Source: Chloranthus sessilifolius
Taxonomy: Eukaryota > Streptophyta > Magnoliopsida > Chloranthales > Chloranthaceae
Assembly (NCBI GenBank): GCA_021018995.1
Contig: CM037598.1
Coordinates: 62,576,671-62,640,670 of the forward strand
Length of the DNA: 64,000 nt
Reading direction: 5' to 3'
Numbering within the stretch: position 1 is the first letter of the stretch; each line of letters opens with the position of its first letter. The notes beneath the pieces were generated by a model. That model saw only the letters and a list, made by a program, of their open reading frames with translations, had not been told where the DNA came from and ran no database searches. Positions 22,705 through 62,885 of this stretch are shown in pieces. The position numbers and the translations under genes were made by a program.

Positions 22705-24262
22705 TGTAGACACCTAAATTTGATCCAAGGTCTGATTGGAACACATTTCGAGAGAGGTGCACCTCCGAGCTTTTGATAGCATGTATGAAATCCTTAGGAA
22801 CCTTTCCAAACCCTTAGGAGCCTTCTTGAACCCTTAGAAATCAACCCTAACCTTCTCAAACCCATTAGAACCCTTTCCTGGACCAGTGTCAAACCCTCTC
22901 GAGTAGTGGTTGGAAAGAGGAGTGCCAAAATTTACACAGACCTTTTAAGGAGCTAAGTTATATACCATTGGAAAGAGAACTTCTCCAGCTTTCTAATAAA
23001 CCAAACATCACCTCAATCGGAGTTATATATCAAAAGTTATGATCATTTGAAAGTCGGGTCATTTTGGAAGAATTTTTGCCCGGTGCAACTAATAGTTGTG
23101 CCAGGCCTTTTCCCCCTAGAAATGGCATGGGGCAATTAATATTTATGCCAGGTATAAATGGGTCCCCCCACCCCTTGCGGAGCCAACTTCCAGGCTACTA
23201 TACAGAACTGTTTGACTGTACATTTGCCTGACACAACTAATAGTTGCACCAAACATATGAACAGTAACACTATCTTTTTTATCCTAAATTTGTGATTGGG
23301 TTTTGACTTGTTGACCACCTTGACCTTTAGAGTGTATTTTGATAGTTATGTTGCACCCTTCTACACCCTATTTGTAACCCATTAAGTGGCCTAAAGCCTC
23401 ACCTTATCATCCACCATTGGAGAACCTTCTCCCACATTTCAAGGCTCTAAAAATCCTAAGAAACCTTAGATGTTAGATTACCTAAATCCTAATCTTGATT
23501 AGCATCTAAACACCATCCTAACCCACCCATTTCCTATAAATAGAGCCCCCCACCCCTTGGTTTAGGGGTTGAGAATTTTGCTTAAGAGAGAAAGAGCTCA
23601 AAGTGAGAAGTTCTTCCTCCCTTTGCGCATTATTTTCACCCAAATTCTAGAATCTCCCAACCTCATTTCAAACTTGTTCTTGCATCCAAAACCCATATCC
23701 TAGGTGTGTGTGATCCCCTAGCCTCCCTTCTCTACCTCTTAGCTTCAAGTCTTAGGAGTTAAAACCCTATTCCATACCATACAAAGCCTTCAAGAGCTTA
23801 TCAAAGCAAGCCACGCAAGGCTCTCCTATGGTGCTACAAGGGCCCGAGGGCTCCGACTCTCCCCTTTCTTCCTCTATCTCTTTTTAGTGTTTCCCATCTC
23901 CCCATTTGTGCCATTATGCCGTCAAATTTTTTGTAGGAACGGAGGGGCACAAATAGAATTGGAAGCCCATTTGGGCAAGCGGAGGCTACTTTTCTCTCTT
24001 TTACTTTACTTTTGTTTTGGCCATATATAGAGACTGCATTAAGCAGGTTGATCGGGTGCCTAACACCTTCCTGATCGATAACCGAAGCCTCTACCCAAGA
24101 GCCTTTGGTGTGGATCGAATTTAGAGTCATATTTTTAGCACTTTGGTGCTCATAAAACTGAACTAGGTCTCCTGGGACACCGAAAGCTCCGGGTGGCGAC
24201 TCTATATTTTTTGGAAGTGAACACATCGCCGCGACGGGATCGTCAAAAATTCCACGGTTGCA
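22705..24262 (+). repeat. 5' LTR of element C1
   Basis: Begins TGTAGACACC and ends GGTTGCA, directly before the primer-binding site. U3 holds three 21-bp palindromes (23082-23102, 23129-23149, 23230-23250). The TATA box tataaatag is at 23535-23543. Downstream segments such as GATCGGGTGCCTAACACC (near 24049) and GGTGGCGACTCTA (near 24193) recur in the C2 LTR (near 62668 and 62810). Confidence 0.88.
23535..23543 (+). promoter_or_regulatory. TATA box of the C1 LTR
   Basis: TATAAATAG in CTATAAATAGAGCCCCCC. The C2 LTR has TATAAATAAAG in the matching place (62151-62161). Confidence 0.75.
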
Positions 24263-24266
24263 TAGA

Positions 24267-24284
24267 TGGCGACTCTGCTGGGGA
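24267..24284 (+). promoter_or_regulatory. Primer-binding site of element C1
   Basis: TGGCGACTCTGCTGGGGA, a few bases after the LTR end. From memory this is the site type of Tat/Ogre elements, primed by an arginine tRNA; I could not check that here. Confidence 0.75.
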
Positions 24285-25713
24285 TAGCTTGTAGAGATTT
24301 TCCTTGAAATTTGGCCCTTTATTTTTTATTTTACTAATCATTTTTACTATTTTTTTATTTTTGTCACCCCTACTTTTCCGTCATTTACGAGCCTTAGCCG
24401 ATTGGCGGGCCTACATGCGCATTGCCCTTTAATTTCTTTACTTTTTCGTCACTCTAGCGCCTTAGTCGATTGGCGGGCCTACTTGCGCATTGTCTTTTAA
24501 TTCCTTTTAAATTTTCATCATTTAAAGTGCCTTAGCTGATTGGCGGGCCTACTTGTGCACTCATATCCCAACAGTGGATGCCGGCCCGTAGTGGCAGCAC
24601 GGGATCATCACCCCCGGTTTTTGAATTAAAGAAAATTTCTAAAAAAATAAGAAAAGCTTTGAAAAAAAAATTAAAATTGAATCAAGAATAGGGAGCTTAA
24701 TTAATTTGTTTTCATGGGGTAGATTTTAAAAAGGGTTGGGTTTAGGCACACATACAACCACCTGAGTCTTAGTATGGTGGCAACCCCTAGTGGTGATGAT
24801 CCAAAAAAGTCCTAGCCCACCTAGTATCTGAGAAGGCGCTTGCGCCGGAGGTATGTTGGGTGGGTTCCTATTCCAAAGCTTAAAACCTTTGGGGAGCGCG
24901 CTAGGGAGTTATACCGGACTCAAATCTTTTAGGCGTGGTGAGGAGAGAATCGATCACAAAAAATAGCTCAATTCGCGGAAGCCTAGCTTCCACAAAAACC
25001 AAAAAAGAGACTCATTTCGGTGTTGTTTGCTGCTGTCATATACATCTCGAGCCCCATTTTAGTGGCACAGGTATTAGTTGCGCCAGTACAAAAATCTGGA
25101 ATTTATAACTAGTGCAACTAATAGTTGCGCCAGCTTTAAACCCTCAATTTTTACCTTGGCGCAACTGATAGTTGTGGCAGTATAAAAAAGGGGTCCTGCT
25201 ACCTTGACACATGTATTAGTTGTGCCAGGTTTGTTCTGGACAACAGCTGTCCGAATCTGTGGCCTTTGTCACCTCCCGAGTCCCCCGATCAGTGTGCTTA
25301 GTGCCTTGCTTAGGCCCCGCCATCTCCGACACCCAATATGCTCCTATTGGTCAAAAGAGGGCAACTACTTTTTGGCTCATTCCGGGGGATCGAGTTATTC
25401 GCCTCGATTTTCATGCCTTAAATAGATCGAAGGTTCTCCTTCGATTCTTCTGAAGTGCATCAGAATTATCGCCGTGGGTCTTGAATTAGGGTACGAGATC
25501 CACTCGAAAAGGGAATTCCAAGGCCTTGGAACCTTTGTTTTTCAAAAACTTATTTCCAAAAATCAAAAAATAAAAAAGTAAATCAAAACCCAAAAAAAAG
25601 TAGTTTGTGGTGTCGGCACAACGGCATCATCTTTCCCTCCACTGCCCTATAGGGGAAGGAGGAGGATTTTTGGACCTTATCCAAGGCACCCTTACCCAAC
25701 CCGTTCCCGTAGA
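24285..25713 (+). other. Untranslated leader of element C1 with four 21-bp palindromes
   Basis: No supported ORF. Around 24380-24560 a phrase containing GCCTTAGCCGATTGGCGGGCC recurs three times, about 75-85 bp apart. Class I palindromes occur at 25064-25084, 25111-25131, 25158-25178 and 25206-25226, 47-48 bp apart, that is, about four and a half DNA turns. Confidence 0.75.
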
Positions 25714-27364
25714 ATGTCGTGGGTAGTGGACCCAGCTTATGCCGATCCCGACTCATCCCTGTCACATTCTCCAACCCACTCCCATTCGAGAGAAGTTTTT
25801 TCCACCATCCCCCTCACCCAATCACCCTTTACAGTTACCGGCCCGTTTGGCGCCCCCATTTTCCCAACCACTACCCCCCAAAATATCCATCCAACCCCCA
25901 TTCTTCATCTTTTGCCCAAGCCATGCCCATGCCAAATCCAACTCATTTCCCATCGACATCCATACAAGACCCAAACCCATTCTTCCAATCCACACCCATG
26001 CCCCATTTCCCATCTTCCCCCTATAGGCCTGATCCACGCACATTCACATACACCACTTCCACCCTATCCAACCCCCACAAGTCCCCCCATCTACTCGGGT
26101 CATGCCCATTTTTACTGGGGCCATACCTGATTTTTCCCAAACACCCACACTTTACCCTTCATCATCCCCCTTTGCCAATGCCCCACCCCATTCCTTCAAT
26201 CCATCCCATATCCCATCACTTACCATGGCCATGCCTAATTTTTCCTCTACTTCCACCCCATCTATACCCAATCATCCCTTAAACCCACCACCCACATCCG
26301 ATCCTCCTTCCATCACCATGATGGAGGAAATGTTTCAAGCCTACTTCTTATGGAAGGCTTCCCAAAACAACCCCCATCATCCACTCCCCACATCTATGGA
26401 CCCATCCTATACCCTAGCCAATCTCCATGCTTCACTCTCCTATGATCCCCATCAACCCCCCATAATTCACACCATCCAAACCCCCATCTCCCACATGCCC
26501 CAAGGCCCATTGGCCCAAAATCCCACCATTCACCAAGGCCCATTGGCCCAAAACCCCACCACCCATGATCTCCAAGGCCCATTGGCCCAAAACCCCATCA
26601 CCCATGATCTCCAAGGTCCAATGGCCCAACACCCCATCACTCATACCCAAGGGCCCATGGCCCAAACCCATTAAGGGCCCATGGCCCAAACCAATCTAGA
26701 GCCCATGGCCCTAACCATCAAGGGCCCACGACCCAAACTCACCAATGACTCATGGCCCATACCCCAAAAACCCAGTGGGCCAGGCCCACATACCCCAAGG
26801 GCCCATTGCCTAAACCTTACCCACGGGCCCATGGCCCATAACCCTCAAAACCCAGTGGGCCAGGCCCCCATACCCCAAGGGCCCATGGCCCAAACCATCT
26901 AGGGCCCTGGCCCAAACCCATTTGGCCCAAACCCTCCAAGGGCCCATGGCCCATACCCACCAATGGCCCATGGCCCATACCCCTCAAAACCTAGTGGGCC
27001 AGGCCCACATACCCCAAGGGCCCACAGCCCAGACCCATCTGGCCCAGGCCCATACCCACCCATGGCCCATGGCCCAAGCCCTCCAAAGCCCAATGGGCCA
27101 TACCCATTAAGGCCTAATAGGCCAAGATCCCCCAAATCCCATGCCCTTTACCCAAACCCAACCTGATCAAGGCCTTGTGGCCCAAACCTACCCCGGGCCC
27201 ATGGCCCAAGCCCCATACTCATACCCTCCACAATACCCCCAAAATTTCACCCACCCCCAACCTTCACAACCGGGTCAAACCCATGCCATACCTCAGACCC
27301 AATTTTCTCATGGCCCCATACCCCAAGGCCATATCCAAACCTTCCCCCATATCAAATGGCCCTA
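25714..27364 (+). pseudogene. Proline-rich gag N-terminal region of element C1
   Basis: Open but frameshifted. It starts MSWVVDPAYADPDSSL or in the adjacent frame. It continues with Pro/Ser/His-rich sequence and a short amphipathic part (MMEEMFQAYFLWKASQN, about 26320-26370), then GPLAQNP-type repeats. A similar proline-rich stretch precedes the zinc-finger-like box in element C2 (45566 onward), which is why I call it gag. It ends abruptly at the junction near 27364. Confidence 0.6.
26480..27210 (+). repeat. GGCCCATGGCCCAAACC minisatellite in gag
   Basis: Dozens of imperfect copies of a unit built on GGCCCATGGCCCAAA, in blocks with CCCAGTGGGCCAGGCCC. It encodes GPMAQ-type repeats on the plus strand and glycine/leucine-rich nonsense ORFs on the minus strand. 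Confidence 0.9.
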
Positions 27365-27401
27365 TCAGTAGCAAGCACTTAAAAATAGCCTAACAAGTTT
27401 T

Positions 27402-27419
27402 TGGCGCCGTTGCCGGGGA
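27402..27419 (+). promoter_or_regulatory. Athila-type primer-binding site
   Basis: TGGCGCCGTTGCCGGGGA, the well-known PBS of Athila-like plant elements (aspartate tRNA type, from memory), lies seven bases after the LTR-tail end AACA. Confidence 0.88.
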
Positions 27420-27716
27420 GATTGATCGTTTAGTAGACTCTAGATTTTTTGAGTCTTTATTGTTTGGTAGCTGTACTTGTGAATAATTGATACTGCTGAT
27501 TTACATTTAAAATTTTTCTTACAGATTTGGACCGTAGCAGAGGAGAGTAGAATTGCACTGGGAGTCTGGCTACCTCTGTTTGCACTTCTCTAACCCTCAA
27601 AACTCAGTCTATTTCTCATTTGAAGATTCCATAGCATAGCAGTTGATTAGGATAGTTGCATTTTTTTAAAGTGCAATGTGCTTGTAAATAGTCTTCCCTG
27701 CTGTTGGTGTGTGTGC

Positions 27717-27917
27717 ATGTTAGGAAGGAGGTCCCTCAGTCCTACATTAGAGCCTGCTAACCCTGAGATAGAAAGGGGTAGAAGACCGAGAAGGCATAGA
27801 CACACCACAGTTGAGCCCCCTATTGAAATTGAGATAGCAGTTATGAGTGAAGAACAACTTAGAACATTGAAGGAATTGAATGCTCCGGATGATTACAATT
27901 CTCCATTCAGCATCTAA
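27717..27917 (+). pseudogene. Athila-type gag N-terminus (truncated)
   Basis: MLGRRSLSPTLEPANPE, a basic stretch (RGRRPRRHRHT), then RTLKELNAPDDYNSPFSI and a stop. The phrase RTL.EL.APD...P..I.(F/Y)PD is how Athila gag proteins begin. Reading through the stop gives FPDVQGN. The rest of gag and all of pol are deleted. Confidence 0.65.
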
Positions 27918-29505: not shown

Positions 29506-29908
29506 ATAGGCAGTCCTACCATATGAGATACAAGTCCCATCTTTACGCATCCAACTCGATGATGAGCTATCATTAGACGAGAGGAGAATTGTGTTACTTA
29601 CTTAGTTAGAGTGACTCGATGAAACACGCCTATGGGCAGCTGATGACGCTCAAGTATATCGGAGGAGAATGGCCAGGGCCTGTGATAAGAAAGTCCTTGA
29701 ACGAACCTTTAACATTGGCGAGCTAGTCCTAAAGAAAGTTAGATCTTTCAAACACGTCCATCCAGAAGGAAAACTGAAACCAAACTGGGAAGGCCCTTAC
29801 GTTATAACAGCTGCATACCCTGGAAACGCGTACACATTGGCAAGCCAAGACGGGGAAGAACTCCCTAGCCCCTGGAATGCCATGTACCTTAGAAAATACC
29901 ATCCTTAG
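29506..29908 (+). pseudogene. Integrase C-terminus of element B
   Basis: VLPYEIQVPSLRIQLDDE, two stops, then RRRMARACDKKVLERTF and KLKPNWEGPYVITAAYPG, ending at PWNAMYLRKYHP. The order matches 6901-6497 of element A closely. It lacks the catalytic core, which was lost with the 5' part of the element. Confidence 0.88.
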
Positions 29909-31563: not shown

Positions 31564-33294
31564 CTAATCCCTATGCTGCCGCTGAGGAGGACGAGCGCCG
31601 CTATCACTGGTATCGTCAGCTCGGAGGTCCATAGACTGATCATCTGAAAACACAATCCTGACGCCAGGAGTCCTCGGGACCTTTAAACGGTGAAGACCCG
31701 CCACCGAACCCCCTCACTAGCCCGACTGACCAACCGCTTCAACTGAGAATGAGGAGGAAGCCTCGCATCACTCCCTCGAATGACGGAATCCTCATGACTT
31801 CACTCCTGTCGCGACTGCGAGAGGTATGATGAGACTGCCCAGCTGAAGAACTCGTAGCCCTCGACTCTAACCCCTCACGATACTAGCCGACCTGCGCGAC
31901 CCCTGCTCGGCCCTCGTCAAGTGATACTATAACCGATCTAGGGACACCTGCATCTCCGCCCGTGTAGTTCGACACGTTGCCGCTAGTGCCTCCGTATGAG
32001 TCCTCTGCGTGACCAACATCTCGACCACCAGATCCTCACAACTCTCCACCTCTCCGAGGACCCATCTCACCTTCGGAGTGGCACGCACCCGCGCTGCCTC
32101 TAGCCGTGCCTCCTCGAGCTGATGAACCTGTATAACTCTATTGAATCAAAGGAAGCAAACATATGCATATACGAATAACAACAAAACTCGAAATGAAAAA
32201 TACATATATACCAGATCTAGCCTCTCTCCCAGAAGTCGCTCGACCATCTCTGCGGTCACTAGATCAGCAGATGGCACCTAAGGGACAGAAAATGTAGACG
32301 ATTGTAACGAGAATAAATAAATGCATAAGATAAATATTACGATAACAAATAACTTATGAACCCAATAACTAAAACATACTTGGGTAGGGATAGGAACAGA
32401 CCCCTGAGGAGGAGCCTCGGGAGCAGAGTCTGGAACCGGAACTGCTTGAACAAAAAAAAAAAAACAAACTACAAGCTAATATGAACGCATTAGAATAAAT
32501 AGAAATGAATAATCCAAACTAAATTACACTAAACCATACCTAACTCTCGGACCGTAGAGAGGCGGCGGTCACCTCCCTCATCTGCAAGTCCTCAGCCGCT
32601 CTCGTTGAAACTCCGGCAAGGCACGGTACCAAGTATGAGACTCGGTCCATGTCGTGCTAATAGCCAACTATGGGGGCTCCTATTGAACGAAATACAAACA
32701 ATGGCAGTAAGACTAACGCACACTTATGACAAAAGATAAACAAATTTAAAGCTCAAAGCAGATGAAATACGCCCAAACCACATAATAATAACTTACAACG
32801 AACACATAAAACATGATAAGAGCAACTAATTCCAACATGCTGTCATAATACACAAGTAAACACGACCAATAATTAATGCAGGTTCGACATAAATTAGAAG
32901 GGTTTATAGATCCTAACGAGCCTATGTCATAGCCTGAATGCTCAGGAAAATGGAAGAACTCTTGCTTACAAGGACCTACCCGACCTCTAGCAAAGAAATC
33001 CTCTAGTGGATAATGCCTACGATCCCGAGGCTCAGCGCCTGGCTGCTCCTCACCCTGCTCACCCTCAACTTTATCGCCCTCCTCCTTGGCTACCCCCGGC
33101 TCAGCCTCAAGTACCTCCTCCCTGACCACCATTTGGTAGCCCTTGGGGACTCTCTCCGCGACCATCTCCCTGGTATCCACCTCTCTGGCAACGGCTCTAG
33201 CCTGTGCCCCCGAACTCTCACCTCCATCGCTCATCAACATCCCCTCTAACTCAGAAATAGTGAGCTCTAGCCTACCAACACCCTCACCATCCAT
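31564..33294 (-). pseudogene. Antisense gene of element B (PMD gene with the PMD core deleted)
   Basis: ATG at 33294, MDGEGVGRLELTISELEG, then an acidic N-terminal domain and KQEFFHFPEHSGYDIGS, which matches exon 1 of element A. A short piece near 32560-32690 (DRVSYLVPCLAGVSTRA) corresponds to the start of the PMD core and is also seen in element D near 62920. The remaining PMD exons (TLEDW, WAYDHF, VIWRPYE) are missing. The coiled-coil C-terminal exons follow (QVHQLEEARLEAARVRA near 32120), and the last residues QRQHRD and the stop (31564-31566) align with QRQRRE in element A. So the two ends were kept while the middle was lost. Confidence 0.65.
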
Positions 33295-33460
33295 CTGATA
33301 CAAAGAGCTCAGAAAATTGAAGAAAATGGAAGAAACGACACTCGAAACGGATGATCGGATCACAGGATATCACGAAAACACAAAAAATGAGCACACAGAC
33401 ACTGTGAAACAAGAAAATCAAAGACAAACGGATCGTGTGAAGAGAATGAGAAGTTCTGAA

Positions 33461-36254: not shown

Positions 36255-36375
36255 CCCAATCTGACGGTTAAATCACTCAATATCGCAAAAAGACGAATCT
36301 CAAAATGCTAAAACACTAAGAAAAGTCAGGACTCGAGACTAAACCCAAGAATGAAAAGCAAATGAAGACTCCTTC

Positions 36376-48689: not shown

Positions 48690-49790
48690 GTCGTGATACT
48701 TGTCTAGCGTGAAGTCGACCCCTTTCCTGTAGAAATACAAGAAGAGGTAGGAGTCACGAGTCTGGACGAGGAAGGTCAAATCAATGAGCTCCCCAATGAG
48801 CACCTTAAACAATTTGTCAATTTTAAGCATGGCTCGACCCCGATCGTTGAAGAGACGGAGGACGTCAATTTGGACACCAAAAATGCCCCTAGAATCACCA
48901 AAATCGGAATATCGCTGTCCCCTGTGGAGAGAAAAGGTATGATAGACTTCCTTTGGTCATACCAAGACGTCTTTGCATGGTCGTATGAAGACATTCCTGG
49001 TTTGGATACCGATCTGGTTGAGCATGAGTTGCCACTCTACCCTGATATTAAGTTGGTTAAACAGAAGCTGAGACGCCTCCGACCTGAATGGATGTTGAAG
49101 CTGAAGGACGAGGTCATTAAGCAGTATGACGCGGGTTTCCTCATAGTATCCAAGTACCCGCAATGGCTGGCCAATATCGTCCCCGTACCAAAGAAGGATG
49201 GGAAGGTTCAAATGTGCATTGATTTTTGAAATCTCAATAAGGCAAGCCCTGACGATGACTTTCCGTTACCTCACATCGATATCGTGGTCGATAACACTGC
49301 TAAGCATGGAATGCTCTAATTCATGGATGGATTCTCGGGCTACAATCAGATTAAGATGGCAGAGGCCGACCGAGAAAAGACTGCGTTCATCACTCATTGG
49401 GGTACCTTCTATTACAAGTTGATGCCATTTGGGCTCAAGAATGCCGGGGCATCATACCAGAGAGCAATGACGACGCTGTTCTACGACATGATGCACTGAG
49501 AGATCGAAGTGTATGTCGACGACATGATTGCCAAATCATCGGAAAGGGATGACCACCTGGTAAACCTTCAGAAGCTGTTTAAGAGGTTGAGAAAGTATAG
49601 GTTGCGATTGAATCCCCAAAAGTGCACATTCGACGCTATGTCAGGAAAACTGTTAGGCTTTATTGTCAGTAGGAGAGGGATTGAGGTCGATCCAACCAAG
49701 ATCAAGGTCATCATTGAAATGGCACCACCATCTACAGAGAAGGAGGTTAGAGGCTTTTTAGGCAGAATCTAGTACATTAGTCGGTTCATT
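48690..49790 (+). pseudogene. Reverse transcriptase of element C2
   Basis: The pre-RT segment ISLSPVERKGMIDFLW, FAWSYEDIPGLD leads to LRRLRPEWMLKLKDEVIKQY, WLANIVPVPKKDGKVQMCID, a stop, then FPLPHIDIVVD. Further motifs are [32 protein letters not shown], a stop just before EIEVYVDDMIAKS (catalytic YVDD, about 49510-49521), KCTFDAMSGKLLGFIVS and GFLGRI. Only about five in-frame stops interrupt it, so it is younger-looking than element A pol. Confidence 0.9.
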
Positions 49791-50890
49791 GCACAGTTAA
49801 CTCCGATATGCGCACCGATCTTCAAGCTACTAAGAAAGGATTCACCAGTTGAGTGGAATGATGACTGCCAAGCTGCATTTGACAAGATCAAGGGTTACCT
49901 CCTAAATCCTCTAGTATTGGTACCACCTGTACCTGATAGACCCCTGATAATGTACCTGTCCATGACAGAGTTTTCCATGGGCTGTGTTAGAGCACCATGA
50001 TGAGATAGGAAGAAGAGAGCAGACCATCTACTACTTGAGCAAGAAGTTCACTGATTATGAGACGCGCTATTCTCAACTAGAGAAAGCATGTTTAGCGCTC
50101 GTATGGGCTACTCAAAGACTTTGACACTACCTGTTATCCCAAGCCGTTCTACTTCTAGCACGGATGGATCTGTTGAAGTACCTGTTTGAGAAACCTGCTC
50201 TCACTGGCCGAACTGCACTATGGCAACTACTTCTCTCCAAATTTGACATTACTTATGTCACCTAGAAGTCGATCAAGGGGCAAGCACTCGCTGATCATCT
50301 TGCTGAGAACCCTCTGCCGAACTATGAGCCTCTAAAGACTAAATTCCTCGATGAGGACATCCTGTTCATGACTGAAGAGGACACGGAGGAAACAGACGAA
50401 TCCTGGGTAATGCACTTTGCTGGGGCATCGCATGTTGAAGGCCAAGGAGTTGGCGCCATTCTTAACTCACCAAGAGGATCGCATGTACCCATCTCAATCA
50501 AGTTGAACTTCCCATGCACCAACAATATGGCCTAGTATGAAGCCTGTATAGCTGGTTTACAGGCGGATCTTGATCTGAATATAACTCACCTTAGGGTCTT
50601 TGGGGATTCACAGTTAATCATATGCCAGACCAACGGAGATTGGAAGACCAAGGATGAGAAGTTGATCCCGTACCATGAACATCTTGAAGATCTGATAACC
50701 TGCTTTGAGGAAGTCACCTTCTCCTATGTGCCACGAATAAGAAATTGGTTTGCTGATGCCCTAGCTACCCTGACCTCTATGGTTGAGATTCCGTACGGGG
50801 TTGAGATGAAGTCGATCATGATAGAGCAGAGGGACGAGCCGGCATTCTGTCACCTGATCGAGGGATCTACCGAGTTAGATGATGAGCCAC
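49790..50890 (+). pseudogene. RNase H and second RNase H of element C2
   Basis: After GFLGRI come YISRFIAQLTPICAPIFKLL and FDKIKGYLLNPLVLVPPVP, then a broken RT-linked RNase H (50000-50290). The second RNase H (about 50400-50860) reads WVMHFAGASHVEGQGVGAIL, CTNNMA, stop, YEACIAGLQADLDLNI, FGDSQLIICQTNGDW and WFADALATLTSM. The first catalytic Asp (usually FDGAS) is Ala. Glu in YEAC, Asp in GDSQ and Asp in ADAL are kept. The dual domain supports Tat assignment. Confidence 0.85.
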
Positions 50891-50904
50891 CCTAGTTCTC
50901 AAAC

Positions 50905-52139
50905 ATCAAGAATTTCCTCGAGACCCAAACTGTCCCGGAAGGAACATCAAAGGTAGACAGACACACCATCCAGCGATTGGCAACGAACTACGTCATCTGC
51001 GGCGATCTCTTGTACAGACAGTCTCACGACAATGCTCTGCTCCGATGCTTAATCGAGAGAGAAGCGGTTGAGATCATGAAGGAGATCCATGAAGGAGTCT
51101 GCAGGGCACACATCAGTGGACACATGCTCGCTAAGAAAATCCTAAGGGAAGGATACTTTTGGACCACTTTAGAGACTAATTGCTACAAACACGTTCAGAA
51201 GCGCTACAAGTGTCAAGAACACTCTGATCTAATACATGCTCTGGTCATTGATTTACACAGCATGACCACTCCTTGGCCATTCGCCACCTGGGGTCTCGAC
51301 GTCATCGGCAAGATCAATCCTAAGGCTTCCAACGGACATCAGTTCATCCTCGTCGTAGTGGAGTACTTCACGAAGTGGGTAGAGGCAGCCTCCTATACGA
51401 GCATTAAGGCCAATCATGTCAAGAAGTTCATCAAGAACAACATCATTTGCAGATTCGGCGTGCCCAAGGATATCATCACTGATAATGGTACTAATTTCGC
51501 TAATAGGCGCATCCAGGCCTTATGTGAGTGGTTCCAGATCAAGTATCATCGATCATCCCCATATAGGCCTCAGACGAACGGAGCTGTAGAAGCGGCCAAC
51601 AAAACTCTGATCTGCATTCTAGAGAAGATGGTAGTCACTTACAGAGATTGGAGTGAGCAGTTACCCTTCACGCTTTAGACTTATAGAACGTCTATCTGTA
51701 CCGCTACAGGGGCAACACCATTCTCCCTTGTGTATGGAACCAAGGCCGTGCTACTCGTTGAGGTCAAAGTACCATCACTCAGTATCCTTTTGGAATCCCA
51801 TCTGCCCGAAGCTGAGAAGGAAAGATCTCGTTTTGAGCCGCTAGATTTGATTGACGATAAGAAACTCCTAGCTTTGTGACCCAAGTCTATCAGAGGAGAA
51901 TTGCACGTGCTTACAATAAGCGTGTTCGCGCTCGAGACTTGCAGATAGGTGACACGGTACTAAGGAGGATTTTCCCGTCTCTCCATGCTGATCTAAGAGG
52001 GAAGTTTAAACCGAATTGGGAAGGACCCTACATCATCTGAGAAGTGTTGTCGGGATACGCCGTTCACCTCGCCACCATGGACGGAGACCACTTTCCTGAG
52101 CCCATCAACGCTGGATACCTCCGGAGGTTCTACTCATAG
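50905..52139 (+). pseudogene. Integrase of element C2, nearly intact core
   Basis: Open 50977-51678 (233 codons). Zinc finger: HEGVCRAHISGH, then YKCQEH with one Cys of the pair lost. Core: WGLDVIGKI (Asp), IITDNGTNF (Asp), YRPQTNGAVEAANK (Glu), so the catalytic triad is present. After a TAG the frame continues YRTS, ATGATPFSLVYGTKAVL. A frame change leads to RRIARAYNKRVRARDLQIGD, KFKPNWEGPYII, a stop and NAGYLRRFYS, ending at 52137-52139. Confidence 0.9.
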
Positions 52140-53975
52140 GTCTTGCGACAAGGTAAGTGTTGATAAAGGTAGATGCGTGACCGCTTAAGGACCCCATAGA
52201 AGAGGCCATCATTTCAAAGACAAGTAGCCAAAATAATAATAACAATAATAAAATAATATATATTCCCTGAATACCTTTACCCTTTTGCTACACACGCCGG
52301 GCCAATAACCATTTCTTTCATATACCCCTCCCAAAAACATTAAAAAAAAATTAAAAAAAAGAAGAGGAGAAAAGAGAAATGTGTGTTAATACCAACAAAA
52401 AAGAAGGAGAAAAGAGGGGAAAAATCTCGAAAAAAAAAGAGAGAAAAAATCCAAACCAAAAAATATATATATATATATATATATATAGAAAAGTAAAACC
52501 CCAAAAGGGGGGATCAAGAATGAAAAAGAAACGACTGGGGCACGTACAGTAAAAAGCCCCTGAAAAGGAAGAGGAATCACTGAATCTGGAATTCACTCAA
52601 AGCTTAAATCCAAAATCCCAGAAAAACCTAGCCTGTTTGAGCCCCGGCCACATTACAACCCAGAAGAAAGCCCTCTTTAAGGTCCACAAGCAGTCATAGC
52701 ATCTGTTGCATCTGCATAAGCTGAGTTAATGGACCACGCAGAACTTCATCCAGCCAGCTATGATGGAATCGATGTCCATGTCGTGGCTTTCTGGTTCTTG
52801 AAGAAAGTAAAAAAAAAAAAGAAAAAAGGAGAAAAAAATTAATTTGAGTTCAAAGCAAGAAACAACAAACTCACGCGGATCAGGTAAAAACCTTAAAAGG
52901 CACTTGGGGTAAGAGAACGAACCCATGGACATAGTGAAAACCCGAAAGAGTGCTACGAGTAAAAACAGGGATGACAGGCATAGTGAAAACCCGTCTTGGG
53001 CGCTGTGAGCAAAAATGTCAAGAAAAGAGAGACTAGGAGAGGATCTGTTTTGGCCCGCCTATTTTAGTCTGGACCCCTTGAGCCTCTTCTCCCCTTTGCT
53101 GGGCCGCTCATGTTAAAAATTGGATCGGATCCCGATCAAGTATGTCGTCTCTACCACGTCGTCTGACACATGACCAAAGATAAAGGCAGAAGACTATTCA
53201 ATCTTTGAGAAGCTGACCTTTCCATGTTTAAAAGAAAAACCTGAGCCTCATGAACAGGGTTCGACCATGCTAAAAAAAAAAAGACCCACCAGTTGGCCTC
53301 GCAAATACTGACATCACAAAAAGAAGGAGAAAAGGAGAAAATTTCAAAAAAGATAATAGATTCTCCTTTTCCATAAAGAGCCCCACACTATGTAGGAGAA
53401 AATTTTAAAAAAGATAATAGATTCTCCTTTTCCATAAAGAGCCCCACACTGTGTAGGAGAAAATTTTAAATAAGATAATAGATTTTCCTTTTCCATAAAG
53501 AGCCTCACACTGTGTAGGAGAAAATTTCAAAAAGATAATAGATTTTCCTTTTCTATAAAGGCCTTACGTTGCGAGACGTATGGAAGAAAATTCGAACACC
53601 AAAAAAATAAAATAATAATAATAATAATAAAATATACATATATATATATAATAGATTTCATTTATTTTCTTACAGCGTTACGTGTGAAGTGTCACGTCCC
53701 AAAACGATAACAACATGACAAACTTTCTATTTTCTACCTTCTTTACAAGTATAAAAAAAAAAAGAGAAAAAGAAAGAAAAAAAGAAAGAAGAAACAACCG
53801 AAAAAGAAAAGAGATCTCTGTTAAGGGGTATCTGCCCCCCTCTGTGTATATGATCTATGGTATGTGCGGGAACAGGTCAGGGGCAGGAACCACGCATCAA
53901 AGCACTGATCTCTGCAAAGAGAGAGTCCTCACGGGCATTCCGATCAGACAACCACCTACCATGAATACTCTTTTG
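52140..53975. other. Post-pol spacer of element C2
   Basis: Non-coding and A/AG-rich, with a (TA)n run at 52462-52488. 52920-53015 contains a phrase (CATAGTGAAAACCCG) repeated 49-50 bp apart. A four-copy tandem repeat lies at 53335-53575. The AAAAAG-rich tracts yield spurious ORFs. Confidence 0.7.
53335..53575 (+). repeat. Four tandem copies of a ~60-bp unit
   Basis: Each unit starts GAGAAAATTTNAAAAAAGAT, then AATAGATT(C/T)TCCTTTTCC and a SNP-variable tail (GAGCCCCACACTATGTAG). Copies begin near 53335, 53396, 53456 and 53517. The last is decayed. Confidence 0.9.
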
Positions 53976-55388
53976 TTACCTCCGCGAAGCGTTAGCTACA
54001 CTTCGAGACTCAGTCAAAAGCCCAATCAATCGAAAAACCTCACTCTCGACCTTAGCAGCTCTCACCTCCACAATCTCAGCTCTGGCCCTTTCCTTCTCGA
54101 AAGCCTCAGTCAAAGCCAGCCTCTCTGTAGAAAGAGACTCAATCCTAGTCCGGTGTATCGTTTCCTTGTATGGCCAGGGCCCCGTCTCTATCACATCTAC
54201 CGAAATCGGGCTAGGGGCAGGTAAGTCCTCGGATGCCAGCCAAACCTTGTAATCAGAAGAGAGAACGCCCCCCTAAACTAAGCTGCACATGTGCACCAAT
54301 TGGCGGGTCTCCCAGAGGGCTGCTATGCAGTCTAGGTCACAGAGAGAACCCTGAGAGAATATCAGAGAGCACAAGGGTGGCCTCACAGTGCATGACACGT
54401 GTTGGGTATATCCGAATTGACAGAGCACTTGAGATGGGAAATAGTAGGTACTACCAGTCAACCCAAAAAGTGCGATACCCTCACAATCTCAAGAGAGGTT
54501 AATCGAAAAGGTGCCATCCATTCAGGGAAGTTGCCAGATCAACTCCGCATCAGATAGCCACCGGCTCAGTTCCTCGATGCTCCCATGAGGCATTCTCGAG
54601 CACCGGGTTAGAAAGCCCCGAGCCACATCCCCTCTTACCAAGCAAAATCTCGGCATGGGCCCCATGATAGCCAAATGCTCCCCTAGCCAAATCTGAATGA
54701 GGAGTGGACTCTCGCTAAGAATCCCGACCTGGCCCGAGGCCGAGGCATCCATGCCCCGATACATCTAAGCCAGGACCAGGTGTACCAGTGAACGACCTCC
54801 CTTCAATTCGGTCAAGACGTCGCATAACTTGAGGGAAAATGTCTCACCCCCAGTAAAGAAGAGAACTTCCGACAGCAAATAAAGGGCAAAGGCCTTTACA
54901 TTGAAAGGATCTCGAATAGGCAACTTTCGGAGACTCAAGTCGCCGAAAAGTTCTCTCAGGAATTTCACCGAGCACTTGGTGGGCCCCCTGGTGAAGCCCT
55001 TCTCATACCCACCCTTTTTCAAACCCAGAACCGCATGGACCGCCTTTGCATACCCCGGTTTGGGCACCACTTTGGCAAGTCCCCAATGCATCCTCAAGCC
55101 AGTAATAGAGGCTAGCTATTCCAAGGTTGGGGTGAGCTCCCTGGACCTAAATCTGAAGACATGGGCCCTATGGTCCCACGACGCCAAAGCCGCCTGCAGG
55201 AGGTTGGGCAACAGAGGAATAGCAAGGAAAGAGGAAAGGCGGGGTAACTCAAGGCGATCCAGAACAGCGAGCTCGCCCTCAGCCAAGCTATCGCACCATT
55301 TTTACAAAAAACTGGGCCTCGCATCCAAACAACGAAGTATACTAGCCCCAGCCCCCGTATGAGAATTTGGGCCAAGAAGCGAGTCCAT
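53976..55388 (-). pseudogene. Antisense DUF7745-like gene of element C2
   Basis: One minus-strand frame of about 470 codons, with about seven stops, from ATG 55388 (MDSLLGPNSHTG). It reads RSRELTPTLE, stop, LASITGL, which matches the plant DUF7745-type signature (F.....LTPTLEE...L.GL) of PMD-related proteins. Further on are RDPFNVKAFALYLLSEVLFF, IQIWLGEHLAIMGP, RWLSDAELIWQLP, LFGLTGSTYYFPSQVLCQFG and a C-terminal coiled coil (EAFEKERARAEIVEVRAAKV). It lies antisense to pol, downstream of it. No intron is needed. Two class II palindromes lie 175-245 bp upstream of the start. The DUF assignment is from memory of the family. Confidence 0.65.
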
Positions 55389-55562: not shown

Positions 55563-55630
55563 GGCGTATATATTATATATGCTCAGGAAAAATTTTAAAT
55601 ATTTTGCCAGGCGTATATAATATATACGCC
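55563..55630 (-). promoter_or_regulatory. Two class II 21-bp palindromes upstream of the DUF7745-like gene
   Basis: 55610-55630 is a perfect palindrome: arm GGCGTATATA, one central A, then the complementary arm. 55563-55583 has one terminal mismatch. The copies start 47 bp apart. They contain TATAT sequence that could itself act as a TATA region. Confidence 0.8.
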
Positions 55631-55639
55631 CAGCTAAAA

Positions 55640-56039: not shown

Positions 56040-58376
56040 GCACCCCCTTCGACTTCTTCCGGTGCTGGGTCGCGCTTTGAAAAGTACGAGTGTCTCCCAC
56101 CCAAGTCCACGCCTGGGAAATGCGGCCGAGCAGAGAGCGCGACTCCTTTTCACGAGCACACCAGAGGCCATCAGGTAGGGAAACAAGCAGAATGTGAATA
56201 AGAAAATGATTAGGTTTGGTCAGTATTCACTCACCACCTCAGCCTCTCTAAGCCTGACGATGTTGCGGTAATATTCGGCTTGGTTCACAGCTGACTCATA
56301 ATTCTGCACAGCAAGAAAAAGAGGTGTTAGTCACACAGGTCATCAGCATAATTCAAGAAAAAAAGAGTGTAAAGCAATGAGGAAAAGATTACCCCAGGGA
56401 TCAGCTCGGGAGGTGGGATCCGAATAGCTTCAGCATATATGCATGCCTTCTCAGCCACATCGGCACACATATGGGACAGGAAAGCATCATCCAAGCACTT
56501 AAAGGTCCCTGGACCTCAGCTGGCGAACTGCTAGAAGCACCAACACCGGAAGGGTCAGAAGGTCTAGCACCTGTAGCCTCATCAGGAGCAGCTACCTCAT
56601 CCCCCTCATTTGAGTCGCCACCCTGCCCAAACTATAGGGAGAAACAATTTTTATTAAAATAGCATGGCAATGAAGGCAATCACAGGAAAGCTGCTAAATA
56701 AAAAGAGGAAAGAACATTACCTGAGACCGTGAACCGCCAAAAGATAAAAAGTTGGCACCAGGCACGAACCAGGGCAGCAGAAAATGATAGGGCAAAGACT
56801 CATACCACATCTGATATCCTCCAAAAAAAGAAGCTCATCAATGGGGACCCCATGATGGAGAAAGCGAGCGGTAAGCACGTCGATGGAACCTTCAGGAGCC
56901 AGCACATCAGCTCGAGGAGCTTGGGGCACAGCGAAAAGAAGACGATACTGATGAACCACCCTCTCTCCTAGGTAATAGGCCCTAGTCCAAGACCCATAGA
57001 AGAAAATGATGCATCTGTCTAACAAAAAATGGGAAGGACCCACTACAGCCAGGTTCTAGAAGGGAGATCTGACGTAGGGGTCAAGGATGACCTGCTAAAA
57101 AAAAAGAGAGGAGGGATATATACATTTGGTCAAAACCCACAGCACAAAAGAACTATCAAATTTATAAAGAGAGAAATTGTTATACCTGCTCAGGGATCAA
57201 CAAATCAAACTGGGAGCGCAACCCTAACTCCAGGTGCTTCATGCCTACGTCTCGACGGCAGTTCGTGTGCCAATTGCTCATAAGGGGGAATGTAGGAACT
57301 TCAGATAGAAGCAGAAGGCGACCAGGTTGGAAATGCAAATACCCCTAAACCTGAGAAAGCAAGTAGATAAAAATAGATATGCCATAAAAGGGAAAAGTTG
57401 GACAAACTGAAACCAGAGGATAAAATACCTCAAGTGCGGGCCAAAAGCCCACAACGGAGCTGGACTCCCCAAGTACAGCTCGCGCCAAGGTAGACATGAG
57501 CACCGCATAGCCACTACCACCCCAATCAAACTGATGCACGTTGTCCCAGTTCACCATAAAACTAAGAAGGGACAATGAAACCCGCCCTCCACTGGTATTT
57601 GAAAGAAGAGTCTTACCCAAAAGGAACAACAGAGAAATACAGGCCAGCATCAGTGCAAGCTCTGGCTCGAGATAAATGGCCGCATCGGCCTAACCCATAT
57701 CCATTAACTCATGAGGCTCAAACAGACTAACCAGCCATGATAACTTGACTTCAGAACCGTGAACATTCCCTGAGGTTGGGTAGGCCCTTATCAGCCGAGT
57801 CACCTCCTCCCTATCAGGTGTGCGGGTAGGTGTCACTAGCACCCCTCCAATGCGCACCCTAGTGATCATGGACCAGTCCACTGGTGTAAGGGTCATCTCA
57901 GCCACGGCCATATGAAACGTCATGGTCTCGGGTGAAAGCGCTCTATCAGGGCCTTCACGTAGGCCGTGTCGGCCCTCACAGCGGGGCACAAAATAAAATC
58001 CCCAAAATCAGCTTGAGCAAGCAGGTCCTTTACCACTGGGGGAAGAAAGAGCACGAGGCACTAGAAATCAAACCAGCCACCCCGGAACATGATATGAGAT
58101 AAAGGCTACAAACAAAAGGAATCTATCAAATAGGAGCAAAGTGGTATAACAAAAGCATCAAAGGAAAAGAAAAAGGGCTCATCTATTTACCTGGCCAGCA
58201 ATCCTGAAGTTGGAGATATGGGTGCGCTTACAATGGAGGAGGCCGGTACGGGCGGCTTCACCTTGCATTTCATACTAGGGTTGAGAGGAGCGCTGAGAAA
58301 CGATAAATTGCTCCCCATGAGGACCATAGGCCATCTCTGGCCCCTGCTGTTGATCTTGCCCTTCGTATCCAGACAT
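56040..58376 (-). pseudogene. Antisense PMD gene of element C2, intron-containing, broken
   Basis: Exon 1 from ATG 58376 (MSGYEGQDQQQGPEMAYG) to donor at 58190. The PMD core exon (58035-57429) contains ALIERF, a frameshift, TMTFHMAVAEMTLTPVDWSM (the PMD signature TFHLxxGEMTxTLxDV) and FDWGGSGYAVLMSTLARAVL. Then an intron (57428-57351), an exon with GYLHFQPGRLLLLSEVP (57350-57186) and an intron (57185-57092). The next exon starts VILDPY (57091-56806). Acidic and coiled-coil exons follow to about 56040. The introns before the (W/stop)GYLHF and VILDP exons fall at the same places as those before WAYDHF and VIWRP in elements A and D. Stops interrupt several exons. Confidence 0.7.
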
Positions 58377-58828
58377 CCTGAAAATGTGGAACACATCGGT
58401 ATAAGAAAAGGTTGCTAAAAAAAAAAAAAAGAAAAAGGGGGGGGGGGAAAAAAAGGGGGGAGAGAAATGCACTAATCCATCATGAAAGAAACATAAAAAA
58501 ATGAAAAAAGGGGGAACATAGACATAAGGAATCACATATATTGGAAAGAAAATCAAAAGCATTAATCATTCACCACAAAGAGGAAGAGCATCAAGCATTT
58601 CAAATAAAAATCATTATCAAAATTTAAAGGAAGGTGAAAGAAGGGTCGTGATTACCTTCAATAGGAGAGGAAATAGATCTAAAGATCGGCGGAGAGTGAA
58701 CGCTCTTGATCGGCACGAGCGACTCCTAGTGGTAGAACTCAAGCAAGGAGGGAAGAAAATAGAATTTGAAAGGAGGGCCCCTTTTGTGCTCGGGCTCGAT
58801 CAGTTTTTAAACTGTCAGATTTTGGTCA

Positions 58829-58896
58829 GGCGTATATAATATATACGCCCGGCTATTTTCGTTGCGGATTTACCAGGAATATATATTATATACGCC
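58829..58896 (-). promoter_or_regulatory. Two class II 21-bp palindromes upstream of the PMD gene
   Basis: 58829-58849 is perfect and identical to 55610-55630. 58876-58896 has two changes in the left arm. Start-to-start spacing is 47 bp, as at the other antisense gene. A TATA-like TTTAAAAAC on the minus strand lies just downstream (about 58805-58813). Confidence 0.8.
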
Positions 58897-58899
58897 CAA

Positions 58900-61255
58900 C
58901 CAATTTTTGGCTTTGGTGACTCGACAGGCCCTTTGTATGCCCCAGATCAAGGCTCGACCCCTCTTAGAAGCCCACGCATCACCGGGCGATGGTACACGCA
59001 TCCCCAAATGGCCCTTCGAGCTCCCTTTGATCGGCCAAAAGGGACCGTGCTACAATAAACGGATCTAGATCTGTAAGCGCCTGCCGAGTGCTCCCATAAA
59101 ATCATAAAATCAAAAAAAAATTCTATAAAACAAACAAAAAAAAAAGAGATTCGCATGAAATAACAACCAAAAAAAAAAAAAAAAGAGAGAGAAAAAGGAA
59201 AAATGCTAAAGTACAATACTAGTTCTCAAAAGAGCTTCGCAACGCCTGTTTGCCCCACTCTAAGAGCCGTGTTAAATCAATTCGGAATGATCGAATTCAC
59301 CTAAAAATTCTCAAACCCTGTTCTACACAGGGACACCTCATGCCTGATCCGGCAGGCAAAATACTGGTCATGTTTATCCCCGGTCATTAGGAACCCGCTT
59401 CCGAACCCACTTTCCTAAAGAAGATAGCTGGGTCTAATTTGTTTAAAGACCAAGACCATGCATCCCTAGGAGTCAGGACCTGATTCGGCAAGCGGATAAT
59501 TTTACCCATCCCCGGTCACTGTTCCCTAAACATTCCCCAGGAGTCAGGGCCTAATCCGGCAGGCAAATAAGCTCATCCATCACCGGTCGCTCTTGGGAAC
59601 ATACACCTAGCCCAAAATCTTCTCCAACAGGAGGCGAGACTTGATCCGGCAGGCAAACCAAGGACCTACCACCAGAATACGCACGTCCTTAAGGTGTATC
59701 AACATGGCAAGTTGATCTGCCTAAGGATACATGCAAAAATAAAAACAGTATGAGCATGCTAAAAGTCTCGAACTGACATGTGCAAAAAAAAAAAAGAGAA
59801 AAAAAAGAAAGAAGAAAAAAAAAAAAGAGAAAAAAAAAGAGAAAAAAAAAGAAAAAAAAAAAGAAGAGAAAAAAAAGGAGAAAAAAAAAGAAGAAAAAAA
59901 AAGAAGAAAAAAAAGAAGTGAAAAGAAAAAAGAGATGAAAAAAAAAGAAGGTTTGGGATAACAACCTTTTGTTATGTAGTTAAAATCCTGTGTAGGTTGA
60001 CCCCACCTTCAAAGCATTGGTCCACCTTCTGATCTATGTTGACCAAGAGTGCACCCGACTTCAGACCATTCGAAAAGTCTATCGTCAGTTGAAACTGATC
60101 GATCAAAAGTGAAATTACAACCAACCAAACTATGTGCAAACATACAAACAGAAGGGTTCATTCCCTTTTATTTCCTTTTACATAGGCTTAAAATATGTAT
60201 AGGCACGGTGTCCCTGTTGAATGTATGCACTTGCGTTTCGGTATCCGCAGGATGGTCGTTTTTCCTCGTAAATTGTACCTTAGGTATTTAGGGTCGAGGC
60301 TTCTATTCGCGCCTATTTGCTACTTATCGCCCCTGATGGGTGTCAGTCTGTGCATAGTTAGTAAGATGTGATTTCATTAGGGATGGAGGCTAGAATTGGC
60401 CATCTCTTTCGATGGATGTTTGGTCCTAGCCTAATCTTTTTAGCATTGTCTCCAGTTAAGGCACTCGGGTTCGTGTGAATCAGGAGCACCTCACCACCGG
60501 AACGTGCACATCCCCAAGGTGTACCTATCCCCGGTAGAGTGCACGCACTCTTAAAGCATATCAACTAGCATTTGATCCACTTAAAGAGTTGTGCAAGAAT
60601 AAAATTACCAGAGGTCCTTGAGCTTTGATTAGAGGCCTCGAAATAAAAGAAAATTCAAAAATAAAAATAAAATAATAAAATAATAAAATAATAACACTCT
60701 AAAAATGGGCATGCATTCCCAAGAAGTGTTGCGACATCAATATTTGCTTCACTCGGGTAAATCATGCTAAAGCAACCTTGAGGTTGATGGGTTCGCCCAA
60801 AGACTCCGAGCCTTACCTAAGTAAGGGCACCCGCGGCCAATCCAATGGAGCTATCGATACCCCATAGGATTGGACACAATTTATAGGCCTTCGCTTTGTG
60901 TACTTCGCGTCGAGTCTGAAGCATAGATCGATCACCCCATTTCATGGAGCTGTCTAGTTCAGATTAATACTCAACATCACAAATCTATAATTTCCCTCAG
61001 GAAGTGGACGATATCCTGGCTAACAAGCATACACTTTTTGTGATTATCGTAGTTATGCCCTGTAATGTCACAATGCACTTAGGGACTGTTAGCATTGAGG
61101 TACAGACGATATCCTGAAATGAGAGGGCTTACGTACACTCACCATCACCATGGATGTTTGAGAATTAAGTTGAATCAGGCAGACCCATCAAACGATCCTT
61201 GGACCTCTTCGGATGTCTCTTATCTTTGGCATCCAATCATTAGTGATCGAATACC
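58900..61255. other. 3' untranslated region of element C2
   Basis: No supported gene. Four ~65-bp repeats carrying GATCCGGCAGGCAAA and CCGGTCACT lie at 59335-59665. A long A/AG tract is at 59785-59955. Two related segments contain AAGGTGTA(T/C)C(A/T) near 59690 and 60517. The stretch before the polypurine tract is ordinary mixed sequence. Confidence 0.65.
59335..59665 (+). repeat. Four ~65-bp direct repeats (CCGGCAGGCAAA units)
   Basis: AGGAGTCAGGGCCT, then GATCCGGCAGGCAAA, then CATCCCCGGTCACT recurs near 59335, 59470, 59538 and 59630, with decay. No coding capacity. Confidence 0.75.
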
Positions 61256-61268
61256 AAAGAGGGGCATC

Positions 61269-62885
61269 CGTAGACATCCAAATTTGGCCCAAGGCCCGAT
61301 CAGTGTGTACTCCAAGAGAGATGTACCCCTGTGCTTCTGATGGCACCCTTGAACCCTTAGGAATCACCCTGAACCCTTAGGAACCTATCCAAACCTTTAG
61401 GAATCACCCTAAACCCTTTAGAACCATTCCCCCAACCCTTAGAGATCACCCCTAAACCCTAGGATCCCTTCCCAGACCCAACTTGAACCCTTATGAGCAA
61501 TTGATGGGAAGAGAGCTATAAAATTTTACTCAAATCACTAATGAGGATGAGCCACACACCATTGGAATGGGGACTTCTCCAGCTTTCCAGCAAGCCAAAG
61601 ATCACCCAGTTTGGATTTATGGTTCAAAAGGTATGGCCAATTGAAGTTTTACATAAAATCATGACTTTTGCTCAGGCGTATGTATTACATACGCCCAGCA
61701 AATTTGGCCCCAATTTGGTCAGGCTTATTTATTATATACACCTAGCATTTGTGGGCCAAATTTGGCTGGGCATACATAATACATACGCCTAGCATAGGTA
61801 GGGCCCTCCGCGGGCACCCTCCTCAGATCTCCTCTGGTTTTCATGAAAATCACTGTACATAAACTGGGCGTATGTAACATATACGCCCAGCTTAGCTACA
61901 GTAACTGTCATCAGATGCTCAAAATTCCTTCATTGAGTTTGACCTTTTGACCATCTCCTTGGTTGAGGTGGGTGTCTTAAGGTTGGTTGCACCCCCTTTG
62001 AGCTTATATGCAACCCTTAAGTCACCATCTGTCATTGAAACCGGTTCTCCAAACCCCTAGGACTCTAAAAACCTAGAAAACCTTAGATGGGGGATTACCT
62101 AATTGCTAAACCAATTAGCTCTTAAGTAACCCTCTAACCCATCTTTTCTCTATAAATAAAGAGGGACCCCTCTTCCCAAAGGGTTGAAAAATATTAGGGT
62201 TAAAAGTTTGAGCTTAAGAGAGAGAGCCCTAGTGAGAGAAAGTTCCCTTTTATTTTTCATTCTTCAACCAGAATTCTAGCATGCTTAGTTCACTCCTTTC
62301 AATCCATTTTAACCATTAGATCACCCCTTTTTAGTCAAGCTTAGTCTCTAGCTTCATCCTACACTTCCCATCTACCGAATCCTAGCATTAGAATCCATTC
62401 CCCTACCATTTAAGCCATTTAAAGCCATCAGAAGTACACCGAAGCGAAGGTCTTCCACGGTGCAACAAGGGCCTGTGAGCTCCGGCTCACCCCTCTCTTC
62501 TTCTACCATCTTGGTGTTTCCTCCGCCCAAGGATTCAAGTTGTTACGCTGTCGAAATTTTATTTTGGCTCAAAGCTTATAGGACCATATTACCTTCGGGC
62601 AAGCGGAAGCTCTGCCCATTTATTTTTTCATTTTGGCCATAGATAGAGACCGCTACATGTGGATTGATCGGGTGCCTAAACCCTTCCCGATCGATAACCG
62701 AAGCCCCTGCCCTAGAATCTTTGGCAAAAATCGGTAAATCAGAGTCATATTTAGCACTTCAGTGCTTAAAATATTGATTTAAAGGTTTCTTGGGTCACTA
62801 AAAGCTCTGAGTGGTGGCTCTACATTTATTCCATCGAGAGCTTTATTGTCGCGGGAGCAATGGGTCTGAGAATCCATGGTCGACA
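61269..62885 (+). repeat. 3' LTR of element C2
   Basis: Starts CGTAGACATC (TG decayed to CG) after the polypurine tract AAAGAGGGGCATC (61256-61268). Ends near CATGGTCGACA. U3 holds four class II palindromes (61675-61695, 61722-61742, 61769-61789, 61867-61887; the first three are 47 bp apart). TATA box at 62151. It aligns with the C1 LTR (22705-24262) along its length, with insertions and many substitutions. Confidence 0.85.
61675..61887 (+). promoter_or_regulatory. U3 array of class II palindromes (C2 LTR)
   Basis: 61675 is a perfect palindrome with arm GGCGTATGTA. The other three have two to five arm mismatches. Three of the four start exactly 47 bp apart, the same step seen at both antisense promoters. 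The array ends about 265 bp upstream of the LTR TATA. Confidence 0.85.

Follow-up and report, generated by a model that had tools for sequence, protein, structure and literature searches.

Family-specific 21-bp palindromes at the promoters of Tat/Ogre-like retrotransposons in Chloranthus sessilifolius: candidate operators for element-encoded PMD proteins

Why would two retrotransposons in one stretch of plant DNA carry, at the promoters of their sense and antisense genes, palindromes of the same 21 bp whose arms differ from one element to the other? The question is raised by 64,000 nucleotides of the Chloranthus sessilifolius genome (contig C15:62576671-62640670, in an assembly of 2.17 Gb in 32 contigs, with contigs C1-C15 of 96-199 Mb each). 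This whole stretch, which we call the window, holds two elements, C1 and C2. Their sequence identifies them as Tat/Ogre-like Ty3-gypsy long terminal repeat (LTR) retrotransposons with two antisense genes, here named PMD1 and PMD2 after the plant mobile domain (PMD) of their products; AP1 and AP2 denote the promoters of PMD1 and PMD2. Three arm types occur among the palindromes, and each recurs at the promoters of the element that carries it, which bears out the divergence between subfamilies claimed in the first-pass annotation of the window. We give about an even chance to the reading that these palindromes are operators for a dimeric, family-specific DNA-binding factor, most likely the element-encoded PMD1/PMD2.

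Palindromic sites in the window and in the genome

The first-pass annotation listed 15 sites of 21 bp, seven of class I in C1 and eight of class II in C2. A mismatch scan recovered all of them, 13 with at most three mismatches to their class and the remaining two (those starting at 23129 and 25206) with five, and ten block-shuffled windows gave zero class I or class II matches under five mismatches. The class I palindromes (no site of either class is assigned a strand) lie in the U3 region of C1 at 23082..23102, also supported by alignment, at 23129..23149, a decayed copy, and at 23230..23250. Four further sites occupy the C1 leader: 25064..25084, likewise aligned and with an altered left arm, 25111..25131, 25158..25178, and the hybrid 25206..25226, which joins a left arm resembling a third class, described below, to a class I right arm. 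Among the class II sites, 55563..55583 and the perfect palindrome 55610..55630 belong to AP2 of C2; the perfect and aligned 58829..58849, together with 58876..58896, belongs to AP1. The U3 of C2 contains a perfect palindrome with the variant arm GGCGTATGTA (61675..61695), equally near class III, and three sites found by arm comparison to have unequal arms (61722..61742, 61769..61789 and 61867..61887).

The first description of these sites needed refinement in several respects. Dyad symmetry was confirmed, but only three of the 15 sites are perfect palindromes (55610, 58829 and 61675), and the supposed retention of the outer GGCG/CGCC failed, both being intact in 4/15 sites. The classes do differ within the inner six bases, yet at three positions per arm and not at all six: offsets 6, 4 and 3 from the centre are class-specific, while A, T and A at offsets 5, 2 and 1 are common to the classes. 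Joint change of the two arms within class II holds for 61675 but not for 61722, 61769 and 61867, whose inner six bases are unequal, leaving five of the eight class II window sites symmetric in their inner part. The step of 47-48 bp accounts for 37 of the 52 gaps below 200 bp between neighbouring sites in the fetched loci, with another nine at 97-101 bp. Class I copies are decayed: of 47 departures counted in the arms of 19 sites of this class (loci L011, L031, L034 and element C1), 22 fall at the CpG of the outer arms, as expected of methylated silent copies. Since each arm contains one CpG, binding could be methylation-sensitive.

All 15 window sites stand at promoter positions, whether in U3, in the C1 leader or ahead of the two antisense genes, in agreement with the placement first claimed. 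The class II arms contain TATATA, which would suit core-promoter TATA elements. However, classes I and III occupy the same positions without TATATA, and in U3 a TATAAATA stands apart, 264-285 bp downstream of the palindromes (TATAAATAG at 23535, 285 bp beyond the 23230..23250 site of C1; TATAAATAA at 62151, 264 bp beyond the 61867..61887 site of C2). AP2 also has its own TATA-like sequence, in C2 CATAACC on the minus strand, 28 nt downstream of the site at 55563..55583; the last palindrome ends 28 nt ahead of the TATA-like sequence in the window, in the class II locus L030 and in the class I locus L011, and 27 nt in the class III locus L038. A role as TATA elements is accordingly scarcely credible to us.

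The genome search for such 21-mers that the first-pass annotation had proposed returned 8,687 exact copies of the class II site and 9,405 of the class I site, against base-composition expectations of 0.003 and 0.0008; reversed-string controls gave 0 for class I and 0 for class II across the genome, and the exact motifs gave 0 and 0 in viral_contigs. In the first 50 sites listed per class, neighbours follow 47-48 bp steps and 1.9-2.7 kb spacings in both classes, and sites with no other within 25 kb number 9/50 for class I and 3/50 for class II. We used 21 loci of 10 kb at arbitrary positions (L006-L026) as an unselected sample. Three of them contain sites with at most five mismatches: L011 (class I, AP2), L019 (class II, leader) and L020 (class II, AP1). 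Neither in the window nor in these loci are the palindromes scattered without promoter preference, and both together hold zero sites of any class at this threshold outside the elements. Sites of different classes, the three arm types included, share alignment columns in U3, AP1 and AP2. A separate repeat, made of AATCGATT-type palindromes (L025, L018, L005), was met when palindromes in general were sought and was set aside; arrays of ATCGATTAATCGAT-like palindromic repeats, with another motif and another spacing, lie at L025 977-2235 and 8956-9412, L005 4073-4525 and L018 6220-6290.

Arm agreement and concordance within elements

We scanned the fetched loci and the window, 336 kb in all, with a template in which the three class positions of each arm were hidden. 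The scan gave 73 matches, compared with none in a single Markov shuffle per locus. Under lenient classing (two of three positions per arm), 57 sites were II/II, 13 I/I, two undecided/I and one I/II, the last being the decayed 23129..23149 site, so that 70/73 are concordant; many scanned loci had been picked by exact class II sites, and the ratio of classes is therefore uninformative. A stricter count took 88 sites with at most five mismatches to any of the three classes. L004, contained in L005, was left out of the counts, and the site at L002 1183 (five mismatches, five arm mismatches) out of the 88. Both arms are equal at the three class positions in 63/88 sites, at the inner six bases in 56/88 and at all ten in 35/88. 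When right arms were shuffled across sites 2,000 times, with relatedness ignored, the mean number agreeing was 30 and the maximum 41, against the 63 seen. Overall, then, the arms do not vary independently, although single sites do. Paired and chimeric arms alike are spanned by the pattern GGCGNANNTANTANNTNCGCC, with the frequency of chimeras known from the fetched loci only. The symmetry reaches weakly into the flanks.

The same sites could be imagined as RNA hairpins of the genomic transcript, serving packaging, dimerisation or export: palindromes are able to pair, and the leader, AP2, AP1 and 3' U3 sites would sit in the full-length sense RNA. What is conserved, however, is the letters and not the pairing alone, as 52/52 class II sites have T at offset 6 of each arm; class I has C there on one arm in 16 and on the other in 17 of 19 sites. 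A single central base makes a poor loop, the RNA lacks the 5' U3, and the AP2 sites lie 27-28 nt before an antisense TATA-like box. We regard the hairpin explanation as very improbable.

Agreement extends from the arms of a site to the promoters of an element. In seven elements, 26/26 promoter blocks carry their own element's class, the blocks having been assigned to one element by inference from spacing and orientation. None of the blocks was chosen by class in the class I element at contig C1:152.90-152.93 Mb (five blocks: 5' U3, leader, AP2, AP1, 3' U3), in element C1 (two: U3, leader), in C2 (three: AP2, AP1, U3) or in the class III element at contig C10:32.38 Mb (three: AP2, AP1, U3). The class II element at 79.33 Mb has five blocks, all located via exact class II sites; that at 68.33 Mb has four, three located in this way and the 3' U3 not; and that at 61.235 Mb has four, all so located, with AP2 not seen (L035 is pol).

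The third class came to light at the arbitrary locus L021, which contains the later part of a PMD2 gene; this shares 50% identity with the PMD2 of class II and stands nearer to that of class I. Upstream of this homologue, in L038, a perfect GGCGCATGTATTACATGCGCC stands at the AP2 position with a partner 47 bp on, and L039 repeats the class III site at AP1 (4167) and U3 (2853). The class III LTR aligns at 72-74% to class I and at 69-71% to class II. The arms of the three families are GGCGCAACTA (I), GGCGTATATA (II) and GGCGCATGTA (III), with perfect palindromic copies in each. Intermediate sites exist: L039 2729 and L001 1548 tie between classes II and III, and the hybrids at L034 3436 and window 25206, III-like on the left and class I on the right, share one aligned leader position.

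Concordance within elements might also arise from a repeat family that duplication or template switching had spread and made uniform inside each element, without any factor bound to it. The array units of U3, AP1 and AP2 are indeed about 71-81% alike over 67-141 bp, in both orientations, and their spacing resembles a tandem unit. A neutral process, however, predicts neither that dyad symmetry is regained in three arm types nor that aligned promoter positions are retained between families, and the fetched parts of C2 and of the class I element hold zero sites with at most five mismatches away from the promoter blocks. As a complete explanation this is distinctly unlikely, though copying of arrays inside elements may contribute.

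The main rival is that host transcription factors bind the sites, and that families were captured by, or escaped to, different factors, one per element. Plant LTRs usually depend on host factors, and host factors of fixed specificity would meet the tests done equally well, whether arm agreement, concordance of blocks or the appearance of class III. Against this, three specificities would have to share the same unusual 10-1-10 dyad, the 47-bp step and the common bases, and would have to change together at U3, the leader and both antisense promoters; the confinement of sites to the elements in the window and the arbitrary loci is a further difficulty. We find this explanation doubtful.

Several observations weigh against the operator reading itself. 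The arms disagree at one or more class positions in 25/88 sites. In 6/6 copies the first class II U3 site has unequal arms (GTGGATA against GTATGTA), G occurs at offset 3 in the left arm only in five class I sites (window 25064 and 25206; L034 1506, 3371 and 3436), and L039 4093 fits no class. Class I had been expected at L038, where the new class III appeared. Exact class II sites had served to locate twelve of the 26 blocks, leaving 14 not chosen by class, and the comparison covers only three families, which applies equally when arm type is set against protein phylogeny. The U3, AP1 and AP2 arrays are alike beyond the 21 bp, so copying within the element may explain part of the concordance. 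On the protein side, sequence searches identified no DNA-binding fold for the PMD proteins, and by sequence PMD2 has no solved relative in the PDB. Our confidence in operators is lowered by the asymmetric arms and by the blocks chosen by class.

Antisense PMD genes and a putative operator system

In C2, PMD2 occupies 53943..55388 on the minus strand, with its start codon at 55386-55388; it is a broken copy, 81% identical to the 456-aa open frame L033:40-1407:-. PMD1, spliced and also broken, occupies 56697..58376 on the same strand, and its start codon (58374-58376) comes after a likely intron of the 5' untranslated region, read by eye. The first-pass annotation had called these proteins PMD or DUF7745-like. 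The first name is justified for both genes by their relatives, since L032 for gene 2 (47.1 bits, E 2.5e-12) and L030 and L031 for gene 1 (59.2 and 38.5 bits) exceed the Pfam gathering score of PMD (PF10536; 34.9 bits), while the decayed pieces in C2 stay under it (24.5 and 16.8 bits). The second is not: DUF7745 reaches 17.5 and 15 bits, under its cut-off of 26 bits. In a comparison of PMD2 with a large protein database, none of the 7,999 best word-sharing candidates scored had E <=0.001, and its matches in the PDB, two antibody chains (E 0.06 and 0.78), were taken as chance.

Both antisense genes are kept as proteins under purifying selection, with ratios of nonsynonymous to synonymous substitution (dN/dS) of 0.16-0.26. 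Between classes, PMD1 and PMD2 have 52-57% identity, dN 0.34-0.37 and dN/dS 0.18-0.26, with synonymous sites near saturation; within class II, dN/dS is 0.16-0.23. The PMD genes evolve about twice as fast as pol, pieces of which give dN 0.16-0.19 and dN/dS 0.06-0.16 between classes I and II. At its C-terminal end, PMD2 has a heptad-like stretch, by a simple count, followed by basic residues; the stretch is compatible with a dimer.

When a symmetric site differs between families, and does so in its two arms and at every promoter, the trace is that expected of a dimeric factor acting in trans with a specificity of its own in each family. PMD1 and PMD2 are the sole accessory genes recognised in these elements, and each lies behind such sites, so that their products appear to be the best candidates for the predicted factor. 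Under the operator reading, the palindromes would bind a sequence-specific dimer and thereby place the promoters of an element under joint control: the U3 and leader sites would govern gag-pol, and those of AP1 and AP2 the two antisense genes. The factor would most likely be encoded by PMD1, PMD2 or both, and so would regulate its own genes as well, each family pairing its arm sequence with a protein of matching specificity. As to the direction of the effect, analogy with the VANC proteins of VANDAL transposons favours family-restricted activation or anti-silencing. Protein binding, the dimer, PMD as the factor and the direction of regulation are all conditional here. The arrangement looks like lock-and-key control evolving inside each family.

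A fuller version is more tentative, and we give it somewhat less than an even chance. It would make the PMD proteins dimeric DNA-binding regulators, with a self-contained Tat regulon in which the two antisense PMD proteins read the palindrome at the promoters of their own family, and with the code of three positions per arm and the proteins diverging together and insulating the families from one another. Equally tentative, as part of this version, is the ladder from class II through the II variant (GGCGTATGTA) and III to I, with half-changed sites in classes I and II, which might record the switch. The palindromes would provide a candidate PMD target that is concrete and numerous and has built-in controls, namely three arm types and three protein sets in one genome. 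If the reading is true, LTR retrotransposons gain a counterpart of the VANC/VANDAL system, and the retention of antisense genes in these elements is explained.

The window also contains members of a second PMD group, PMD-B, at 1890-2573 (+), 32749-33369 (-) and 62928-63570 (+), and another lies at L019 6114-7682 (-). The piece at 32749-33369 has no Pfam match and was assigned through its DNA similarity to L019. Two alignments of PMD-B with PMD1 show 24-28% identity. The group adjoins a Tat leader or LTR in L019 and at window 63 kb, and three upstream stretches scanned contain zero class sites.

Known parallels and the structure of the elements

Element-encoded regulators that act on short repeats in their own promoter include HTLV-1 Tax, on 21-bp U3 repeats, and Spm TnpA. 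Tax works via host CREB on direct repeats, and the sites of TnpA, in a DNA transposon, are short words. The closest working parallel is VANC/VANDAL of Arabidopsis: each VANC protein binds arrays of a short motif peculiar to the VANDAL family that encodes it, the motif has diverged along with the protein, and anti-silencing in trans is limited to the family (PMC5735166, PMC10398659). Common to both systems are short motifs that are specific to a family and set in arrays in noncoding regions of the coding element (here in 26/26 blocks). VANDALs, however, are DNA transposons, and the VANC21 motif is nine bases long and arrayed in a single orientation, compared with 21-bp palindromes here; VANC binding has been measured, while binding to the candidate operators described here is predicted from sequence. 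VANC is not called a PMD protein in the accessible text of these two papers. The elements studied here are LTR retrotransposons with PMD genes and not MULE-type DNA transposons with a VANC homologue (no direct comparison with VANC was made).

PMD proteins have been described both in transposons of several types and among host genes controlling transposon silencing. The PMD proteins MAIN and MAIL1 act with PP7L, and genes losing expression in their mutants share a promoter motif, DOWN, with a reader described as unknown (PMC7156037, PMC9899485). The likeness lies in a complex of the PMD family for which action through a DNA site, either direct or by way of another factor, is suspected, with direct DNA binding left open in the accessible parts of these sources. 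MAIN and MAIL1 differ in being host proteins, and the DOWN example for MORC1 (CATGCAGTTT) is not among the palindromes. In the Retand lineage, TRP28 is an antisense accessory protein predicted to bind DNA and proposed as a regulator (PMC11963269). Retand elements are Ty3-gypsy relatives, also with antisense genes between pol and the 3' LTR, but the protein domain is another one, and the accessible text describes no operator in the LTR or antisense promoter. Among the extra domains of plant Gypsy consensuses, PMD is the commonest; its function is called unknown there, and no cis sites are described for these consensuses in the text available (PMC9289625). Some PMD transcripts of tea yield phased small interfering RNAs (PMC10673657), which makes PMD genes silencing targets in at least one plant. 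In the accessible portions of the open-licence literature, searches for palindromic operators in connection with PMD or Tat elements turned up no such description.

The 5' LTR of C1 (22705..24262, +) is about 67-72% identical to class II LTRs and 77-78% to the class I LTRs of L031 and L034. A sequence resembling a primer-binding site, TGGCGACTCTGCTGGGGA, follows at 24267 and then the leader; LTR and leader together show about 67-72% identity to their class II counterparts. The 18-mer pattern follows two of the four 5' LTRs (those of C1 and L027; not L034 or L005). It may be a primer-binding site of the Ogre kind, with tRNA-Arg as the putative partner.

C2 is laid out as sense pol, the antisense region and the 3' LTR. 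Its pol has profile matches at 50536..51675 (+), in neighbouring pieces, to RNase H (RVT_3, E 1.2e-15) and then to integrase (rve, E 8.3e-14), an order in keeping with the Tat/Ogre-type assignment; the piece upstream of them, at 48708-49226, had no family match. The 3' LTR (61269..62880, +, end approximate) is 80-84% identical to L001, L005, L027, L028 and L029 and collinear with the AP1-3' LTR part of L028, with some alignments taking in flanking internal sequence. Between pol and PMD2 lies a tandem 61-bp repeat (window 53333-53575; L032 1232-1606), which is common to the element at 79.33 Mb. In a class II relative, the gag-pol region also encodes a G-patch domain (L019 109-1071, -, E 1.4e-5), reported to be among the extra domains that recur in plant Gypsy elements (PMC9289625).

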